This document shows positions 8,941-20,351 of a DNA stretch of 25,645 nucleotides, in pieces. The translations under genes were made by a program, and so were the position numbers. Origin of the DNA: a virus; the IMG/VR virus record IMGVR_UViG_3300038451_000115, positions 1-25,645 of that record; one strand, written 5' to 3'. Each line of letters opens with the position of its first letter. Positions within the stretch are counted from its first letter, which is position 1. Under the pieces are notes generated by a model. It had not been told where the DNA came from. It saw only the letters and a program-made list of their open reading frames with translations, and searched no databases.

Positions 8941-9402
8941 TTACACCCCTCCTCCGGGCTGACCTACGTCGGTGGGGTTGTAGGTAGCTCGACGCGGCGT
9001 TCCCAGATGAAAGATGCCGAGGTGAAAGTCGCGCATCCGTCCGGCCTTGTTGTTCTTTGCGGCCAGTCCACCATAGGTATCGATCCGCATGGCTGTCTGC
9101 CCCCATTGGGTAGCGTCCAACCCGATGTCCACGACCTTTTGCAGCGTCTGGCGAGCGGCTCCCAGCTGCTCCGTGACCGGCCGGGGATCCCGCACCGCAT
9201 AGAAGTGAGCGGCCACCCAGGTCTCGATCACGGCCAGACGAGAAGCAGAATAGCCTTGCCCTTGCAAGGTGCAGCATTCCGTCACCATCTCATTGGCAAT
9301 GTTGATGAAGGGATTCAGTCCATTAAGGCTGGACCCGACTACGGCCGGATCTGTCTCAATCACGCCGGCGACATCTGTGGGACTGCATCTTCCTGGTAGC
9401 AT
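8941..9402 (-). CDS. Head-tail connector (adaptor) protein
   Basis: A 153-residue helical protein resembling phage head-tail adaptors of the gp6/Ad1 kind. Motifs are SLNGLNPFINIANEMVTECC, a YSASRLAVIETWVAAHFYAV helix, DPRPVTEQLGAARQTLQKVV and LDATQWGQTAMRIDTYGGLA, in the order known from this group. ATG 9402 has AGGA about 7-10 nt upstream and lies 43 nt inside the preceding MptE-like gene. A Gly-rich end (GQPGGGV) precedes the stop. It should form the ring attached beneath the portal. Two Cys in tandem (ECC) near residue 43 are noticeable but without a known role. Confidence 0.78.
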   Translation of the reverse strand: MLPGRCSPTDVAGVIETDPAVVGSSLNGLNPFINIANEMVTECCTLQGQGYSASRLAVIETWVAAHFYAVRDPRPVTEQLGAARQTLQKVVDIGLDATQWGQTAMRIDTYGGLAAKNNKAGRMRDFHLGIFHLGTPRRATYNPTDVGQPGGGV

Positions 9403-10031
9403 GGAGAATTCCTCAGGGCTTCATCCAGGTCCATAAATGGAAACTGAGTGATCGCCGAGTCTCGATTGGTGTTGTAGATTTCCGTGCCCGGGAAGATCTG
9501 GCGGTGGGTCCGGGCGATCTGATACCAAGCCTCATTGAATTTGAGGTACACGGTTGGGTTGGGCTTTTCCACTAACCGCTGGTGCCAGTTGCTGTCTCCC
9601 TCCTTGGACAGCTTGCCATCATAGCCCAGGAGAAAGACTCGGCGGGCCCCAAGCAGCAAGGCCAGATGAATGGCGCTGGCCCCGGTGCTCCCACCATAAC
9701 CGTAATAGAGGCTGCCATCCGTCGTCAGCCCCTTCATGGTGCGGGGCAAGCACAGCACCCATGATAGGTTTGGCGGGACATACTCGCATTGCGTGGCCAC
9801 GCAGCCGCCCTGCTTGAAGTAAGCAAACAGCTCTTCCTCGTACCTGGCGAACCAGGGCTGGTCGCTAAACAGGCAAAGGTGGCAGACATTCGGGCCGTGG
9901 ATAAAGGCCGAGTTGCACCCGATCGTCCGACGCCCCTCTAGTCTGCGCCAATCAAACTCGCGCAGACTAGGGCCCCCTCCGATCAAATAGACATCGGCGT
10001 CGGGCCATTCGCGTTCCGGTGTCCATTTCAC
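9360..10031 (-). CDS. MptE/DUF115-like Rossmann protein, putative glycan or nucleotide-sugar enzyme
   Basis: A 223-residue cytosolic protein lying between structural genes. Its N-terminal motif VYLIGGGPSLREFDWRRLEG followed by GCNSAFIHGPNVC is the glycine-rich loop plus 'N-x-AF' seen in DUF115/MptE-like proteins and phage proteins of similar size. A second block reads YYGYGGSTGASAIHLALLLG, then ARRVFLLGYDG, which is the typical second half of this fold. Members related to this fold include motility-associated glycosylation factors and sialyltransferase-like enzymes, so a role in sugar transfer is possible but not shown. Start is GTG 10031 forming a GTGA overlap with the upstream stop. Together with the 15.8-20.4 kb cassette it makes this phage unusually rich in glycan-type genes. 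Confidence 0.7.
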   Translation of the reverse strand: MKWTPEREWPDADVYLIGGGPSLREFDWRRLEGRRTIGCNSAFIHGPNVCHLCLFSDQPWFARYEEELFAYFKQGGCVATQCEYVPPNLSWVLCLPRTMKGLTTDGSLYYGYGGSTGASAIHLALLLGARRVFLLGYDGKLSKEGDSNWHQRLVEKPNPTVYLKFNEAWYQIARTHRQIFPGTEIYNTNRDSAITQFPFMDLDEALRNSPCYQEDAVPQMSPA

Positions 10032-13027: not shown

Positions 13028-14878
13028 GGTATTGGTGCCCTCACGGGCTTCGTTGGTGGCGGGTTCGTAAGAGGTCTTGCGAACCACCGCCTCTGGCTCG
13101 CCCTCAAGACTAACTTGGTCATCTCCGTCGACGGAATAAGCCTGCTTGAACAGCTTGCCGCTACCATCGTCGTAGACAAAAGAATCATCAAAAACGTCTG
13201 TCACCCAGCAGGTGCAAATGCTGCCGGGACTGGAGCCATCCGACTTCCCATCACGCAGCTTCTTGGAAATCTGCTGGCGGATGTCATCGAAGGAAATCTC
13301 ATTGAGCGCTTCCTCCTCCTCATTCTTGCCCATGGTCGGATATCGCCGCGCCACCTTAGCCCGCACGATCGCCTTCTCCTTCGGTGAACCATGTTGAGAA
13401 ACACGAGATTTGGCGGCGGCGGCGTGCCTGCGATCGTGAATTGGATAGCGCCGACCCGGCAGCGCGAAAGCTGAATCAGGCAAACGATTGCGGGACTTCG
13501 CCGTCAGAACCTTGTTAGCCGTGACCTTGTCACAATTCGCGGCCATCCCATCGTGCAGCTTGGCCGCGCTGGTGTGATAAGCCGACATGATACTGTCCTG
13601 GCCATTGTTCGCACGCCGATGGGCCGATGCAGCATAGCGGTGGGCAATAGCAGCACTTCGATGGGCCCGAGCCACTCCGGCGGACATCGCTTGGTTGCTG
13701 CGCTCCGTTGCGGCAGCCGTGGCAGCATCACTCTCTTCTGTCCCGCTCCACTCGCCCTCATCATCATTCGCGCCGGCATCGGTCCCCCCGAGGGCGTCAC
13801 TGTGGGAAATATTCTCCGTGGCCCCTTCCTCATGCTCATCAGCCAAGCGTCGCTTGCCCCGATTCTTCGCTGGCTTTGGATTGTCCGTTGAGGCGGCCTC
13901 GGCTTCATCACCCCAATTCTTGTGATCGTTGGCCTTGGTCGTGTGCCAGTCCGAAAACGCTTTGTGCCCGGCCTTCGCGTAGAGCCGCGCCGCTTTGCTA
14001 TGCAACTCAGCCGCTCCATCATGAGCCTTCTTCGTCCCGCTGATCACTGCCCACGCGCCCTTGCGATTGGCGTCCCGACTGGCGGCGTGCGCTGCTTCCA
14101 TCGGCTTCGGAGTCTTGTGCTTGGAGTCGCCTTGCTGATCCAGGTCGGCCTGCTCCTCGTCCTCCTCCGAAGGCTTGCCGGCATTATACGTGAGCACGCG
14201 CACGAGGGTGTCCTCATCGATCTCCGCGGCCTGATTGCGCATGAAGCCCGCCCCGTCATCAATGCTGCAGGCCCCGCGTTTGTCGGGCAGGATGGCCAAA
14301 TGGTCCGGGCGGTAGTTGCGAGCAATGGCATCATACGCCTCCCCATCAAATTCACCTGGGTTAAATTCCTTGTCGACGAAGACGCCAGTGGACAGCTCCA
14401 TCATCTGCTCGTTCTCGATCGCTTTCATCACCCGCGGCTCGACAGCATCGGCTAGGGCCGGCTCGACCCACGCCTCTGCGACCAACCGGCCTTTGTCATC
14501 AAAGCGGGTGTTCATGATCATCCCGACTTGATAATTCTCGGCCACGTCCGGATCACAGGCGCTGCGCCCTTCCCCATTTTCCTCCGGGTGGTTGACCACC
14601 ACTGGCTTCATGTTCCAGACGCAGGGCGTCTTGCTGAGTTCGTCGCCGGGGTAGAACAGCGCACCATTCGAGCCCTTGTGAACGCCCTCCGTGATCATCA
14701 CCATGGGCACCGCGAGGTAGTCGCGCCCTTGCAGGCGCTCATTGCGGACCAGCTTCTTGGAAGGGGTGAGATTGAAAACGATCTCAGTCCGCAGGTTGCG
14801 AACAAGCCCTTCAGTGGCACCTACGTTCAGGACAAGTTTTGAACGACCTTGCCCTTGCCGTTTCCGGGACTTTGACAT
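12344..14878 (-). CDS. DUF2213 prohead protease-like protein with scaffold-like C-terminus
   Basis: An 844-residue multi-domain head protein. Residues ~50-215 are the DUF2213 domain: DYLAVPMVMITEGVHKG, FYPGDELSKTPCVWNMKPVV with VVVNHP (His97), VGMIMNTRFDDKGRLVAEAW, ELSTGVF (Ser163), RNYRPDHLAILPDKRGACS. His97 and Ser163 are candidate catalytic residues by analogy with phage prohead proteases. Residues ~256-325 and ~380-445 are Ala/His-rich helical repeats (AHRSAAIAHRYAASAHRRA). Residues ~466-515 form a DUF6582-like motif (LPDSAFALPGRRYPIHDRRH, VARRYPTMGK). From Met618 a distinct acidic scaffold-like part begins (DKKQLIESLIKNHGWTEKDR), with a D/E-rich linker. It precedes decoration and capsid genes. 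No Shine-Dalgarno precedes ATG 14878. Length is well above simple prohead proteases (~200). Confidence 0.85.
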   Translation of the reverse strand: MSKSRKRQGQGRSKLVLNVGATEGLVRNLRTEIVFNLTPSKKLVRNERLQGRDYLAVPMVMITEGVHKGSNGALFYPGDELSKTPCVWNMKPVVVNHPEENGEGRSACDPDVAENYQVGMIMNTRFDDKGRLVAEAWVEPALADAVEPRVMKAIENEQMMELSTGVFVDKEFNPGEFDGEAYDAIARNYRPDHLAILPDKRGACSIDDGAGFMRNQAAEIDEDTLVRVLTYNAGKPSEEDEEQADLDQQGDSKHKTPKPMEAAHAASRDANRKGAWAVISGTKKAHDGAAELHSKAARLYAKAGHKAFSDWHTTKANDHKNWGDEAEAASTDNPKPAKNRGKRRLADEHEEGATENISHSDALGGTDAGANDDEGEWSGTEESDAATAAATERSNQAMSAGVARAHRSAAIAHRYAASAHRRANNGQDSIMSAYHTSAAKLHDGMAANCDKVTANKVLTAKSRNRLPDSAFALPGRRYPIHDRRHAAAAKSRVSQHGSPKEKAIVRAKVARRYPTMGKNEEEEALNEISFDDIRQQISKKLRDGKSDGSSPGSICTCWVTDVFDDSFVYDDGSGKLFKQAYSVDGDDQVSLEGEPEAVVRKTSYEPATNEAREGTNTMDKKQLIESLIKNHGWTEKDRKYLTGLPEERLEELHKQGDALAQNTREAIDHATVADADEDSDAEDNQDDDRGAGDSGGTAEDSEKKGKGGKATLKDDDPATNANKGKGKKPLSLNAFLRTVPPEVSEMVTNGVEAVQAEISRLVEYITQNEANEYTEEELMAMPLKQLRKLAKLAGGGIVENDTPGGRAPLFNGQGEVRPVQNQEGEDAEVLEAPVMNFEEEAKAS

Positions 14879-15827: not shown

Positions 15828-16922
15828 TCAGAGAAGAGTTGGTAGTTCATATGGTTTATAGGCCTCCACGCGCAGAGTTTCCTGATCATCTCGTTCCCGC
15901 CCGATCACCTTCCAATGACCATCACATTCCGCCCGACCTTCCTGATGGATTCGTTCAAACCCGGCGGTGACCAGCATTTGAGAGAGGATCTCATAGTGGT
16001 ACACCATCAAATGTCCATACTTGGTGATGATGTCCTCGCGCCAAGCTCGAGGTAACCGTTCCAGTTCCGGCACGCAGATCCGCAGGACTCCTCCCGGTGC
16101 CAGCACTCGGTGACACTCCTTAAGCAGTCGGTATCCATCCGGGGCGGTCAAGTGCTCGAGGAGATGCTCGAAGAAGACTCGCTCGGCGCAGGCATCAGAA
16201 AAGGGCAAAGGATGAGTAACATCCAGCACCTTAATCTCAGGATGGTTGACCCGTAAGTGGGGATCAAGATCAAAGTTCTCCCAGGGAGGAGGCAAGACGT
16301 TGATTGAGCAACCGAAGTGGAATTGACGTTTCATAGGTAAGGCTTTGCGATAGGTTGATCCCCAGCTCTTCTCCCATCGATGGACCACGATCGACTGAGG
16401 GTGGGGGAGACATTGCGCGGGAGGAGTATCCCATGAATAAGGATAGCAGAGGTGAGAGGCAATGACCGTCAGCCTTTCCCTTGGGGCTTTGGTCATCAGG
16501 AAGACGGCCTGTGGAGGGACTAGGGGAATGGGTAGATGTTCAAACTGCCACTTCACCCAAGGATGCCCAGCCTCTGCTCCAAAGAAGGCATTGCAGAGCA
16601 GCCCGTCTGCCTGCGGCGCAGCAAAGGCCGAGTACTGGACCAACCCATCCAAACTGTGCAGGCACTCAACATCCACGTCGAGATAGATGCCACCAAAGGT
16701 CTGAATGGCCCAAAGTCGCACAAAGTCGGCCGACGCAGCTATCCCTTGGCATCGACTCCGGACCAGTGCCCAGTTCAACCCGAGGTTCTCCATGGTGGTC
16801 TCAGTCCAGAGAAGGTAACGCCAGTCGGGATTCTTTTCCCGGACCGACTCCATCATCTTCTGGAGCCCTTGGTTTGGGGGGTTAGGTCCCAACCATACCT
16901 GATGGAGGATCTTCGGGATCAT
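15828..16922 (-). CDS. GT32-type glycosyltransferase fused to SAM methyltransferase
   Basis: A 364-residue fusion. Residues 1-~195 are a GT32/Och1-like glycosyltransferase: start PKILHQVWLGPNPPNQ, WRYLLWTETTM, ASADFVRLWAIQTFGGIYLD with DVD at 82-84 as the metal-binding motif, and a closing VVHRWEKSWGS. Residues ~200-350 are a class I methyltransferase: motif I FHFGCSINVLPPPWENFDLD (GCS where GCG is usual), LDVTHPLPFSDACAERVFFE, EHLLEHLTAPDGYRLLKECH, RVLAPGGVLRICVPEL, and a late YEILSQMLVTAGFERI. Such domains often act in polysaccharide synthesis. The start overlaps the preceding methyltransferase stop as ATGA. Donor and acceptor sugars cannot be told. It would act in the cytosol. Confidence 0.85.
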   Translation of the reverse strand: MIPKILHQVWLGPNPPNQGLQKMMESVREKNPDWRYLLWTETTMENLGLNWALVRSRCQGIAASADFVRLWAIQTFGGIYLDVDVECLHSLDGLVQYSAFAAPQADGLLCNAFFGAEAGHPWVKWQFEHLPIPLVPPQAVFLMTKAPRERLTVIASHLCYPYSWDTPPAQCLPHPQSIVVHRWEKSWGSTYRKALPMKRQFHFGCSINVLPPPWENFDLDPHLRVNHPEIKVLDVTHPLPFSDACAERVFFEHLLEHLTAPDGYRLLKECHRVLAPGGVLRICVPELERLPRAWREDIITKYGHLMVYHYEILSQMLVTAGFERIHQEGRAECDGHWKVIGRERDDQETLRVEAYKPYELPTLL

Positions 16923-17479
16923 TTCTTCCTTAAGCAGTAGGAGGGCCAGTCAAGCTCAGAGGTCAGGTATTGGATCTCCCAACCTTCCTCAGCACAGAAT
17001 TGATTGACCGCTTTGACCACCCCAAACTCTAGGGTCCTGGCCCATTGGGTGGTTTCGATGTAATCATGCCCCATAATGAAACCCCCCGGTTTCAGTCGCT
17101 TCGACCACAACCTCAGGTCTTGGATGACCTCGGGGTAGATGTGGAACGCATCGAGGTAAAACCAATCGAGCATGAACATGGTCTGGACAGCGATATCAGC
17201 CGAGAAGCCCCGATGGATGATTACTCGACCACGGGCAATGTCTTGAGCCAACTTGCGCTGGGTCTCCCGAAGGTTCTCCTCGTGGTTGCTGTTGTTCATG
17301 CACGCATCCCGCTCATATTCCTTGTATTTGATCCAAGGATCGATCAGATGCAGCGCGGCCAAGGGACACTGCGCCATGATCACAGCGAAGTCTCCTCGGA
17401 AGACTCCGATCTCGGCCCCAATGGAGCCGGGGAGAATGACCTTACGAACGAGGTCTTGTCTGGTTGGTAATTTTTCCAT
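16919..17479 (-). CDS. SAM-dependent methyltransferase (Methyltransf_24-like)
   Basis: A 186-residue class I methyltransferase. Motif I is IGAEIGVFRGDFAVIMAQ (residues ~20-37), then LHLIDPW, a DIARGRVIIHRGFSADIA segment, and the family-typical YLDAFHIYPEVIQDLRLWSK with LKPGGFIMGHDY. Usual members have D-G-x-H-s-Y at the YLDAFHIY position, so the loop is somewhat divergent. The group includes sugar O-methyltransferases and hydroxylase-like enzymes. Met at 17479 overlaps the epimerase end by 38 nt; a Met at 17530 would overlap by 89 nt and adds an unlikely leader. GGAAGG lies about 14 nt upstream, a long spacing. With the neighbours it probably methylates a sugar or glycan. Confidence 0.8.
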   Translation of the reverse strand: MEKLPTRQDLVRKVILPGSIGAEIGVFRGDFAVIMAQCPLAALHLIDPWIKYKEYERDACMNNSNHEENLRETQRKLAQDIARGRVIIHRGFSADIAVQTMFMLDWFYLDAFHIYPEVIQDLRLWSKRLKPGGFIMGHDYIETTQWARTLEFGVVKAVNQFCAEEGWEIQYLTSELDWPSYCLRKK

Positions 17480-18437
17480 AAAGATCGCGCATTCCTTCCC
17501 GCACCGCTGCGCTCGAGCCTCGATGGGCACACCAGCCCAAGGAGGCTAACCGCTGGCAGTCGAGCCGAACGATGGGTACATCACCCTGCCATCCTCGAGT
17601 TCCTCCCGAGTACTCAAACCTCACTTCTTCTGGGTTGAGTCCCACCTCCTCACAAGCGATGCGAGCAATTTGATAGACGGTAATGGCATCACAGGACGCA
17701 ATGTTCCACACCCGATAGGAAGGGAATTGAATCTTCTCAATTCGGAACAGCGCATCAATGACATCGTCCACGTAAATGTAGCTCTTTGATTGCTGCCCGT
17801 CGCCGAGGATCCGGAGGAAGGATGGATGACGGAGTAGCTGATTGATAAAGTCACAGCTGACCCCGTGGGTTTGGTTGGGTCCAACAATGTTAGCCGGACG
17901 CAGCACCCTTGCCCGAAGGCCGAACATGTGGCAATGGGCTGCAATCATTGCCTCGCAAGCGAGCTTGCTGGCTGCATACGTGGAGATCGGAATGCACGGA
18001 CCATGATCCTCCGAGAAAGGGAGGAGACCAGTCGGGGCCTCCCCATAGACCCCGCTGCCCGAGAGGTAGAGCAGGTTTCCGATCTCGCAGATGCGCATCA
18101 ACTCGAGGACGTGCTGGCAAAGCACGGTTCCTTGGCGAAAGTCGATCCCAGGATCTGTCACCGCTTTTGAAATATCGGGATTGGCCACGAGATGAACAAC
18201 GGTATCAAACATGCCCTCCTCTGGGACTGGGACCTGATGAAACCAGTGTGGGTCAGCCAAATCCCCTTCGATGACGTTGAGAAGCGGATGATTAATAAAT
18301 GGCTGAAGATGTTCCCACCTCCCAGAGCTAAAGTTGTCGAAGACGGTGACCCGCTCCATCTCCTCAAGGGCAAGCAAGTGTCGGACCACATTGCTGCCAA
18401 CCATGCCAGCTCCACCAGTAACGAGTATCCTCTTCAT
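17442..18437 (-). CDS. NAD-dependent sugar epimerase/dehydratase (extended SDR)
   Basis: A 331-residue extended short-chain dehydrogenase. The Rossmann loop is ILVTGGAGMVGSNVVRHLL (Gly motif 8-14), then VFDNFSSGRWEHL, VIEGDLADP, VVHLVANPDISKAV, the active-site serine region YLSGSGVYGE and the catalytic ISTYAASK (Tyr154, Lys158). LRPANIVGPNQTHGVSCDFI and SKSYIYVDDVIDALF are further family motifs. This is the layout of UDP- or GDP-sugar 4-epimerases and dehydratases. It would supply a nucleotide sugar for the glycosyltransferases around it. The start overlaps the GT9 stop as ATGA. Exact substrate is not readable from the sequence. Confidence 0.9.
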   Translation of the reverse strand: MKRILVTGGAGMVGSNVVRHLLALEEMERVTVFDNFSSGRWEHLQPFINHPLLNVIEGDLADPHWFHQVPVPEEGMFDTVVHLVANPDISKAVTDPGIDFRQGTVLCQHVLELMRICEIGNLLYLSGSGVYGEAPTGLLPFSEDHGPCIPISTYAASKLACEAMIAAHCHMFGLRARVLRPANIVGPNQTHGVSCDFINQLLRHPSFLRILGDGQQSKSYIYVDDVIDALFRIEKIQFPSYRVWNIASCDAITVYQIARIACEEVGLNPEEVRFEYSGGTRGWQGDVPIVRLDCQRLASLGWCAHRGSSAAVREGMRDLYGKITNQTRPRS

Positions 18438-20143
18438 GCTATAACCCCCCGTTTCTTTGCCTCTTCGAATTCAGCTCGCTTCCATTGCTGCGCATACCAG
18501 ACTTCATCATTCCAGGGAATGGGACGATCCCGATCGACTCCGAATGATAATTCCTTCACCTTGTCCGGAGCCCGCTTGCGCATGAGGGCAAACTTCCGCT
18601 CACCCGTCAACCGGTCCTTGGTCTCCATCCTCCAATCATTGATGTCAGGACCCATTGCTAGGTAATCGCGCACAAACCTCCAGATGGCTGCGTGGCGCAC
18701 TAGAAAGAGAGATTGAGTAGCCGGAACGAACTTGTCCGTGACCAACGGCCGACCAATTACCCAATCCCCTTCGCCTAGGTCGTGGTACATCCGCTCGATG
18801 AAGGGACCAAACGCCAGACAGTCCTGCTCAACGTAAATGAAGTCCAACACGGCGTTATAGGCGATCATGGCCGTAGCAATCATCGGGGGCGTCCATCCGA
18901 CCAGATCAAAGTTCTTGCGCCCCTCCTGCTTGTCCTTGATGTGCCCTAGGTCACCCGGGCAGACAATCGTATCCACCGGCCGTCGATAAAAAGGAGCTGC
19001 TCCCCCGGCGGTCAATACCACCACCTTCTCTGGCAGTGGATTGGCATAGCGTACAAGGTTTTCCATCCACACATCAGCAAACTCATTTGCTGGGATGGGG
19101 GTCTTGGCATTCTTAACGTAGCCCGAGCCTATAAGGTAGTGGCGAGCGGGAGTGGTCACGGTGACAGCGGGGTTGGAAGGTTGAGGTTGGGAAGAAAGGA
19201 TAATCGGAGAAGCAGGAGGAGTAGGTAATGCCTCAGGTGGCTTGCGAATGCTCGCTTCCGAAGTGACCAACAGACCCTTCACGGCCTGCTGAACTGAGGC
19301 GACTGAAATGGTATCCATCGGATTGCGGGGAGGATTTCCCAGATCAATCTGGTTCATACTGTTGAGGCGGTGGCGGATCCCAGTGAAGGGGTGATTAGGA
19401 TCACTCTTTATCGCCACCGTGTCGGGCGCATCACAAAGGATCAACTCGGGACTGGTCACTCCAAATAGCACCACCCGAGGAGTGAAGACAGCCCCGGCGA
19501 CATGGGAGGGGAAGCTATCAATCCCCACAAAGAGACGAGCAGCTGAAATGACCGCGGCCAGCTGCAGGAAGTTGGTTCGATTGCGCAGGTCAAGCACTCC
19601 AGTCAGCTTGTAAGGCGGAGGGCTGCCTGGCTCATAAGCCCCTACCACGACCACCGGCAGCAAGGCCTCCAGCACCAACCACTCAATCAGATCACGCCAA
19701 CGAGCTTCGGCCCAGGCTCGCCCTGGCCATAGTCCTGGACCTGGGGCCACAACCACATACTTCCTACTTAGGTGGGGTGGGATTTGCTCTCGAACCCAAT
19801 GGTGGTCCACTTCGGCCGGATAGATCTCGATGGTGTGAGGACAAGTCCCAGGGGCAAACCCTGCGCTCTTGGCAAAGCCATCAATTAGATGGCGGTCGGG
19901 AGTCTTTTCATACTGCACCAGGTCGAGATTGATCACGGTCTCAGGTGGACAACCATAACCGATCTCGCCTGGGCTAGCCCGCTTCACCCGGGGATTGTTC
20001 AGGAAAATCTCAGGGAACCGAGTCCGAAAAAAGATCTCAGCGTCAGGATACTTGAGGTTGAGGGCCCGGACTACGGCGCTGCACAGCAGGACATCGCCGC
20101 GCATGAGATGGCGAACCAAGACATAGGAGTTGGGATGGGACAT
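18434..20143 (-). CDS. Bi-domain glycosyltransferase: GT9 (heptosyltransferase-like) plus GT-A-like
   Basis: A 569-residue protein with two sugar-transfer modules. Residues 1-~290 resemble GT9 ADP-heptose:LPS heptosyltransferases: YVLVRHLMRGDVLLCSAVVR, ALNLKYPDAEIFFRTRFPEI, VVVAPGPGLWPGRAW, LRNRTNFLQLAAVISAARLF and VGIDSFPSHVAGAV (~206-219). A Pro/Ser-rich linker follows (~300-333). Residues ~334-569 look like a small GT-A domain: VVVLTAGGAAPFYRR, LDFIYVEQDCLAFGPFIERM (ExD-type metal motif ~439-441) and IPWNDEVWYAQQW. ATG 20143 lacks a Shine-Dalgarno and lies inside the preceding small ORF. LPS-type sugars are likely substrates; the second domain is an inference. Confidence 0.82.
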   Translation of the reverse strand: MSHPNSYVLVRHLMRGDVLLCSAVVRALNLKYPDAEIFFRTRFPEIFLNNPRVKRASPGEIGYGCPPETVINLDLVQYEKTPDRHLIDGFAKSAGFAPGTCPHTIEIYPAEVDHHWVREQIPPHLSRKYVVVAPGPGLWPGRAWAEARWRDLIEWLVLEALLPVVVVGAYEPGSPPPYKLTGVLDLRNRTNFLQLAAVISAARLFVGIDSFPSHVAGAVFTPRVVLFGVTSPELILCDAPDTVAIKSDPNHPFTGIRHRLNSMNQIDLGNPPRNPMDTISVASVQQAVKGLLVTSEASIRKPPEALPTPPASPIILSSQPQPSNPAVTVTTPARHYLIGSGYVKNAKTPIPANEFADVWMENLVRYANPLPEKVVVLTAGGAAPFYRRPVDTIVCPGDLGHIKDKQEGRKNFDLVGWTPPMIATAMIAYNAVLDFIYVEQDCLAFGPFIERMYHDLGEGDWVIGRPLVTDKFVPATQSLFLVRHAAIWRFVRDYLAMGPDINDWRMETKDRLTGERKFALMRKRAPDKVKELSFGVDRDRPIPWNDEVWYAQQWKRAEFEEAKKRGVIA

Positions 20144-20351
20144 AGGAGTTAGGGTGTGTGGAAAGGGGGTTCAACGTAACCGCACCGTTTGAAACGCTAG
20201 ATGTAGGGGCAAAGAGCACGTTTCCGCCCACGATAGCGGCGATTCCTGCCCCTACAGCGGGGGTCCAGCATAGCTGACACCCCTGCGCAGCGTCAGGGCC
20301 AGGATTTGAAGCTGTGGGCTTCGTTAAAACGATGTAAAAGAACGTGTTCAT
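20043..20351 (-). CDS. Small ORF of unknown function overlapping the GT9 gene
   Basis: A 102-residue ORF starting with an ATGA overlap at the end of the Mu F-like gene. Residues ~1-64 look like a real small protein: MNTFFYIVLTKPTASNPGP, QGCQLCWTPAVGAGIAAIVG, FAPTSSVSNGAVTLNPLS. The last ~38 residues run in a different frame across the start of the GT9 gene and become Arg/Pro-rich, so they may be an accidental extension. A 19-bp tandem repeat at 20120-20157 marks the point where the frames meet: in a single-copy state this ORF would continue in frame into the GT9 protein. Function unknown. Confidence 0.5.
   Translation of the reverse strand: MNTFFYIVLTKPTASNPGPDAAQGCQLCWTPAVGAGIAAIVGGNVLFAPTSSVSNGAVTLNPLSTHPNSYVPSQLLCLGSPSHARRCPAVQRRSPGPQPQVS
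20120..20157. repeat. 19-bp imperfect tandem repeat at the GT9 start
   Basis: GACATAGGAGTTGGGATGG (20120-20138) and GACATAGGAGTTAGGGTGT (20139-20157) match at 16 of 19 positions. On the coding strand both copies read HPNSYV, the first in the frame of the small ORF and the second in the GT9 frame just after its ATG. The 19-nt period shifts the frame by one. Confidence 0.85.

Follow-up and report, generated by a model that had tools for sequence, protein, structure and literature searches.

A head-operon slot for interchangeable glycan-enzyme modules in related uncultivated phages

Dozens of related viruses fill one slot of the head operon, located between the genes for a MuF-like minor head protein and a prohead protease, with different and interchangeable sets of sugar-making enzymes. 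The window analyzed here, an IMG/VR record of 25,645 bases from an uncultivated bacterial virus, contains one such set, a cassette (15828-20143) encoded on the same minus strand as the surrounding head genes. The finding is larger than first described, since the glycan-module slot occurs in the head operon of many related uncultivated phages. We consider it probable that the phage, a tailed and probably virulent one, expresses the cassette late and uses it to build in the cytoplasm a short, methyl-capped glycan on a virion protein, and that the cassette belongs to a series of modules exchanged at the slot.

Organization of the Head Operon

The portal, MuF, cassette, protease and major capsid genes, together with two small genes, all lie on the minus strand (Table 1). 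The cargo slot is bounded upstream by the MuF gene and downstream by the protease gene, whose start is at 14878. The first-pass annotation, made from the window alone, had placed four genes for sugar and methyl transfer between these borders; the four ORFs are indeed present and tightly coupled, with Pfam matches above the curated cut-offs and the GT-A half assigned by structure prediction. The location holds with two refinements: (i) the two small genes, both with homologues at the same position in the related loci L031, L033 and L034, separate the cassette from the protease gene, and (ii) a possible small ORF, starting on the MuF stop codon and running out of frame into the GT9 gene with its 3' part, precedes the cassette, an ORF of about 100 residues being also present between MuF and GT9 in L033 and L034. 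The gene overlaps reported earlier include ATGA junctions, found between the GT9·GT-A and epimerase genes and between the methyltransferase and GT32 genes, and a longer overlap of 89 bases between the epimerase and methyltransferase genes based on a GTG start, which is probably 38 bases because the homologues start at an internal ATG (17479; MEKLPTRQ...). The set, previously described as comprising five modules, is better counted as six domains: GT9, GT-A, epimerase, Methyltransf_24 (MT24), GT32 and Methyltransf_11 (MT11).

Table 1. Features of the head operon and of the cassette in the window
Feature	Position	Strand	Evidence
Portal protein, 714 aa	22742..24886	-	PF06381 87.7 bits; phrog_146 E 1.9e-60
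MuF-like minor head protein, 317 aa	20348..21301	-	PF04233 51.5 bits; phrog_758 head morphogenesis E 2.8e-39
Possible small ORF, 102 aa	20043..20351	-	no Pfam family; ribosome-binding-like sequence of its own
GT9·GT-A fusion glycosyltransferase, 569 aa	18434..20143	-	PF01075 50.8 bits; GT-A half by AlphaFold2 and Foldseek
NAD-dependent NDP-sugar epimerase family protein, GalE-like, 331 aa	17442..18437	-	PF01370 142 bits
Class I SAM methyltransferase (Methyltransf_24)	16919..17530	-	PF13578 47.7 bits; likely start ATG 17479
GT32·methyltransferase fusion, 364 aa	15828..16922	-	PF04488 48.2 bits; PF08241 (Methyltransf_11) 35.1 bits
Small conserved gene 3' of the cassette, 161 aa	15160..15645	-	no Pfam or PHROG match
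Small gene adjoining the protease gene, 101 aa	15003..15308	-	homologues at the same position in L031, L033, L034
DUF2213 prohead protease/scaffold-like protein, 844 aa	12344..14878	-	PF09979 37.2 bits; phrog_2229 head maturation protease E 3.4e-8
Major capsid protein, HK97-type, 373 aa	10611..11732	-	35% identity to the annotated major capsid protein of Brevundimonas phages MaInes and StAshley

Three further features of the operon were observed. The capsid protein resembles family 1 encapsulin below the threshold (26.5 bits), in line with its HK97 fold. A Rossmann-type protein with a GGGPSL motif and a weak MptE-like match (9360-10031) adjoins the capsid genes and is conserved in relatives. 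Finally, the start of the GT9 gene contains an imperfect tandem repeat (20116-20160; CACCCTAACTCCTATGTC / CATCCCAACTCCTATGTC), possibly a duplication of the start site.

An assembly chimera was considered and rejected: copies of the cassette with 99.96-100% nucleotide identity occur in contigs of other metagenomes, one of them the 70,185-base genome G001, and the cassette is therefore not an assembly artefact. A DNA search of 50,697 phage records returned no match to the window, and tblastn with the GT9·GT-A protein gave only short matches to the GT9 motif. A genome scan with the portal yielded six loci in unrelated, mostly metagenome-assembled genomes that point to no particular host, and PADLOC returned no defence-system match.

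Enzymes of the Cassette

The first protein comprises an N-terminal GT9 domain (about 19244-20143), a Pro-rich linker and a C-terminal GT-A domain (18437-19150). The heptosyltransferases that build the LPS core belong to the GT9 family. The GT9 domain clearly exceeds the Pfam cut-off of 22 bits, and its motif region (GIDSFPSHVAGA...VVLFGVT) is strongly conserved in five homologues. Its best matches among solved structures and NCBIfam models resemble WaaF, WaaC and RfaQ, the NCBIfam LPS heptosyltransferase equivalogs (WaaC, WaaF, WaaQ) scoring 20-54 bits, far below their cut-offs of 134-467.

The GT-A domain, formed by the C-terminal 240 residues, and its free-standing homologues have no Pfam family match. 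An AlphaFold2 model built with 16 phage homologues reached a pLDDT of 91.4 and a pTM of 0.91, an earlier run with 7 sequences having been poor (pLDDT 54.6). Foldseek comparison of the model returned GT8 GlyE, GT6 BoGT6a, the xyloside xylosyltransferase XXYLT1 and nucleotidyltransferases of the same fold (query TM about 0.41-0.56), as well as numerous viral glycosyltransferase models, and an ExD motif (E108-x-D110) is invariant in the 16 phage homologues. Structure prediction, the check that the first-pass annotation had proposed, thus bears out its label 'GT-A-like', and the modelled fold identifies the C-terminal half of the protein as a GT-A group outside Pfam coverage. Among 398 Pseudomonadota genomes, a single one encodes a homologue, with 23-26% identity, apparently within an exopolysaccharide locus that also contains an initiating transferase. 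The phage family may descend, through an ancient acquisition, from loci of this type, and it is possible, because of the location of this distant homologue, that the ancestral chemistry acted on host polysaccharide. Other homologues occur in phage head operons, so that the exclusive association with host polysaccharide genes, named in the first-pass annotation as a ground for refuting its proposal, is not seen.

The epimerase-family protein preserves the NAD-binding loop TGGAGMVG, and Tyr154 and Lys158 of the YxxxK motif are invariant in the alignment. The closest solved relative is 3ehe, GalE-1 (E 1e-66); of the earlier designation 'epimerase/dehydratase', only the first term is supported, the closest solved relatives being GalE-type 4-epimerases. 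The window displays SGSGVYG at the site where L125 and L128 carry SSSGTVYG, other relatives SSTAATYG and 3ehe STSTVYG, thereby placing a Gly at what we take to be the catalytic Ser/Thr position of GalE. Since the aligned relatives keep Ser/Thr there, the substitution looks like a private change of this phage; the epimerase step may be weak or lost in the window, and its activity is uncertain.

In the Methyltransf_24 protein, for which no solved relative was found, residues E40, G42, G46, D64, D127, H130, H155 and D156 are invariant in 14 homologues. The last protein combines GT32 (about 16354-16922), scoring more than twice its cut-off of 23 bits and with a DxD motif (D82, D84) invariant in 7 homologues, and MT11 (about 15831-16328), which retains most motifs and carries GCS in place of the GCG of most relatives. 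The cassette proteins are soluble except for one hydrophobic segment in GT9, and no multi-helix membrane protein is present among them.

The MuF-Protease Slot in Related Phages

The search for the gene order in other phage genomes, also suggested in the first-pass annotation, discloses similar sets in the same slot of relatives. With the portal protein as query, 80 related loci were kept, in which the interval between MuF and protease ranges from 27 bases (L088) to 8.4 kb; in L041, L061 and L078 the protease and capsid genes lie directly 3' of the cargo. The slots of L031, L033, L034 and L046/L127 comprise GT9, GT-A and MT11 as separate genes, accompanied in L031 by Methyltransf_24 and an epimerase and in L046 by a radical SAM-SPASM protein. 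Among 87 cargo proteins of more distant relatives, the families found include GT2 (11), Methyltransf_24 (11), FkbM (11), GT11 (10), GT25 (7) and GDP-mannose dehydratase/epimerase (5 matches), the epimerase family being also present. Other slots lack a recognized glycan gene. In the slots of the named relatives Brevundimonas phages MaInes and StAshley, Hardycor1 and Sa179lw none is annotated, and because several relatives (L088, L075) have an empty or tiny slot, the module is dispensable.

In the 24 records with both borders (1.118 Mb), the slots occupy 6.7% of the sequence and contain 17 of the 28 matches to PF13578 (Methyltransf_24), PF00535 (GT2) and PF01370 (epimerase), assigned to slots by hand, against 1.9 expected, an enrichment of about nine-fold. 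The formal p of 1e-13 overstates the effect because operon neighbours are not independent and L098 and L103 overlap identically, but the excess is large nevertheless. The remaining 11 matches lie outside the slots in those genomes, so that the slot is a preferred and not an exclusive site for glycan-enzyme genes.

Several observations were made on individual slots and their borders. In L069 (10462-12335) and L080 (3533-5409), a GDP-mannose 4,6-dehydratase gene (406 bits in L069) is followed by a second sugar epimerase/reductase-family gene, and some relatives may therefore make their own GDP-deoxyhexose. A radical SAM-SPASM protein gene lies 3' of the GT-A/MT11 genes in phages of two different lineages (L046:13295-14149; L118:8669-9454), for which reason the protein may be part of the glycan chemistry. 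In addition, the MuF proteins of several relatives (L061:9081-12233, L083:11379-15392, L048:11389-14592 and L041:11497-13752) have long extensions at the C terminus, the largest protein reaching 1337 aa, and are reminiscent of MuF polymorphic toxins (PMC5576092).

A Recurring Core in at Least Two Lineages

A profile search with the GT-A domain added further contigs, mostly of 65-76 kb (L117-L125, L128), and no portal_3 or MuF match was detected in their fetched stretches or in the whole genomes G004 and G005. All 16 non-redundant GT-A-bearing phage contigs, representing at least two lineages, also carry MT11 and a GT9-like gene, the weakest case being the 179-kb L129. In the second lineage, the one GT9-like gene scored reaches 17.8 bits, below the Pfam cut-off. 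Five contigs of this lineage (L117, L121, L124, L125 and L128) additionally encode Methyltransf_24 and GT32, so that two of them, L125 and L128, contain all six domains of the window, in other orders. The set adjoins a virion structural gene (phrog_3287) in L125 and a terminase gene in L128; the head genes of this lineage are partly unnamed, and its 700-aa protein has no solved relative.

The pairs fused in the window, GT9·GT-A and GT32·MT11, are separate, co-localized genes elsewhere. The fusion of domains that are otherwise separate provides independent evidence that the proteins work together and, with the joint recurrence of the same enzymes in unrelated phages, supports the earlier proposal that the genes act in concert.

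Probable Acceptor and Alternative Explanations

The genome encodes its own glycosyltransferases, as is the case for viruses with glycosylated virions. The domains and folds assigned, their joint occurrence, the place and enrichment of the slot, the recombination boundary and, in relatives, purifying selection are observed; late expression, the sugars and order of the enzymes, a virion acceptor and a benefit we infer, as follows. The cassette would be expressed late, with the head genes, in the cytoplasm, where (i) the epimerase-family protein would supply or edit a nucleotide sugar from the host pool, (ii) the GT9, GT-A and GT32 domains would add up to three sugars successively, and (iii) the two methyltransferases would cap hydroxyls of the short chain. 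The acceptor would most likely be a virion protein of the same operon, such as the capsid protein, the MuF product or some other component of the head or tail, and released particles would then bear a methyl-capped glycan coat determined by the phage, possibly shielding them from adsorption traps, proteases or surface recognition. The single methylated sugar suggested earlier is unlikely: three glycosyltransferase domains and two methyltransferases point instead to a short sugar chain that carries at most two methyl groups.

The first-pass annotation offered two targets, a virion protein or the host surface glycan. In the second case, the enzymes could act in the infected cell on the LPS core, O-antigen or a capsule precursor and thereby prevent superinfecting phages or released progeny from binding to cells or debris. 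The resemblance of GT9 to WaaF/WaaC/RfaQ, the exopolysaccharide context of the cellular GT-A homologue and the precedent of phage-encoded serotype conversion (PMC3636060) all agree with this explanation, which we nevertheless regard as unlikely. Searches of 20 genome-length records from both lineages detected (i) no tyrosine integrase (PF00589), the integrase class covered, with all 14 controls positive, (ii) no GtrA flippase (PF04138), with 7 of 14 control genomes positive, and (iii) no polyprenyl initiating sugar-phosphate transferase, with working controls. Together with the soluble nature of the cassette proteins and the lack of a multi-helix membrane protein among them, these absences argue against lysogenic serotype conversion and a lipid-linked pathway. 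Moreover, genes placed within the head operon would probably be expressed too late to keep out superinfecting phages, and the gene set is swapped at a head-gene junction. Cytoplasmic modification of a co-made virion protein is thereby favoured as the best remaining reading of the gene content.

It is rather improbable that the slot merely gathers passing host polysaccharide genes without a common function, as neutral or transient cargo, although its content is highly variable and sometimes absent, sequence exchange occurs at its border and a catalytic residue of the epimerase is changed. L033 and L034 share 98.6% identity as far as the final base of MuF (L033:13049) and 84% from the GT9 gene on. 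The dN/dS ratios are 0.146 for MT11 and, with dS saturated in both cases, 0.046 for GT9 and 0.021 for GT-A. The drop in identity and the low ratios suggest that the cargo was exchanged at the border with MuF and is maintained by purifying selection. Such strong selection speaks against neutral cargo, as do the catalytic motifs invariant over 30-45% identity, the constant GT9-like, GT-A and MT11 core of all 16 contigs and the presence of the same enzymes in two lineages.

Glycosylation of a modified base of the phage DNA, conferring resistance to restriction, is very improbable: glycosyltransferases that act on DNA are known from phages (Pyle 2024, cited in PMC12619734) and the full genome G001 has FolE- and QueE-like genes elsewhere and may modify its DNA, but thymidylate synthase/hydroxymethylase (PF00303) is absent from G001 and 18 of the 19 other records, being found in 1 of 20, and the cassette sits with head genes, away from replication genes. 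A search for Tet/JBP dioxygenases gave no match in the records, the controls being equally silent. The QueE-like and FolE genes of G001 (L018:6026-8134), with a third gene that is QueD-like by eye and has no family match, form a probable 7-deazaguanine pathway, which points to guanine modification in the DNA of this phage; a weak GT4 match is shown by the gene that follows (L018:8131-9273).

Returning to glycosylation of the virion, the MuF-protease junction would act as a recombination slot through which related phages exchange modules and carry different coats. As a more tentative extension, which we would not yet back against its alternatives taken together, the junction could serve a broad group of uncultivated and apparently virulent phages as a 'virion serotype' locus, where methylated-glycan modules would be swapped by recombination like bacterial O-antigen clusters, and GT9-like, GT-A and MT11, with GT-A outside Pfam, would form a mobile glycosylation unit of at least two lineages.

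Comparison with Known Systems

The chlorovirus PBCV-1 protein A064R, comprising two GT domains and a methyltransferase, builds a methyl-capped glycan on the capsid protein (PMC7019647) and would be a close functional parallel of the cassette. Both systems combine virus-encoded glycosyltransferases fused to a methyltransferase with nucleotide-sugar enzymes, but PBCV-1 infects eukaryotic algae, its domain arrangement is different and its target is proven, whereas that of the window is deduced from the genes. Mycobacteriophage capsids and tails carry glycans (cited in PMC12619734 and PMC11256854), and in Che8, Rita and relatives phage-encoded glycosyltransferases are held responsible for those on capsid and tail subunits. 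In Maravista the glycosyltransferase genes are placed near the 3' genome end, whereas those of the window lie inside the head operon, and no six-domain set is described in the texts consulted.

Shigella and Salmonella phage gtr cassettes are likewise phage-carried glycosyltransferases, but neither a GtrA flippase nor a tyrosine integrase was found in the relatives of the window. Caulobacter FlmG O-glycosylates flagellin by means of soluble cytoplasmic enzymes acting on an assembling surface structure (PMC7591256), but constitutes a cellular, separate system. Bacterial Wzx/Wzy-type exopolysaccharide loci share the distant GT-A homologue (about 23-26% identity), but the window set lacks polymerase, flippase, chain-length and initiating enzymes. 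Phage-encoded virion glycosylation is therefore already known as a kind of system; the slot, the recurring GT9-like/GT-A/MT core and the GT-A group outside Pfam are a new variant within the sources searched.

Phage particles are commonly viewed as bare protein. If the coat is self-made, methyl-capped and interchangeable, the phage surface is chemically variable, which, if true, bears on adsorption, stability in soil, recognition by hosts and animals, and the evolution of viral surface serotypes. The slot provides a simple genomic marker for such phages, with a constant core of three enzymes, and a candidate function for genes of the glycosyltransferase, epimerase and FkbM families, often recorded merely as auxiliary metabolic genes in surveys of environmental viruses.
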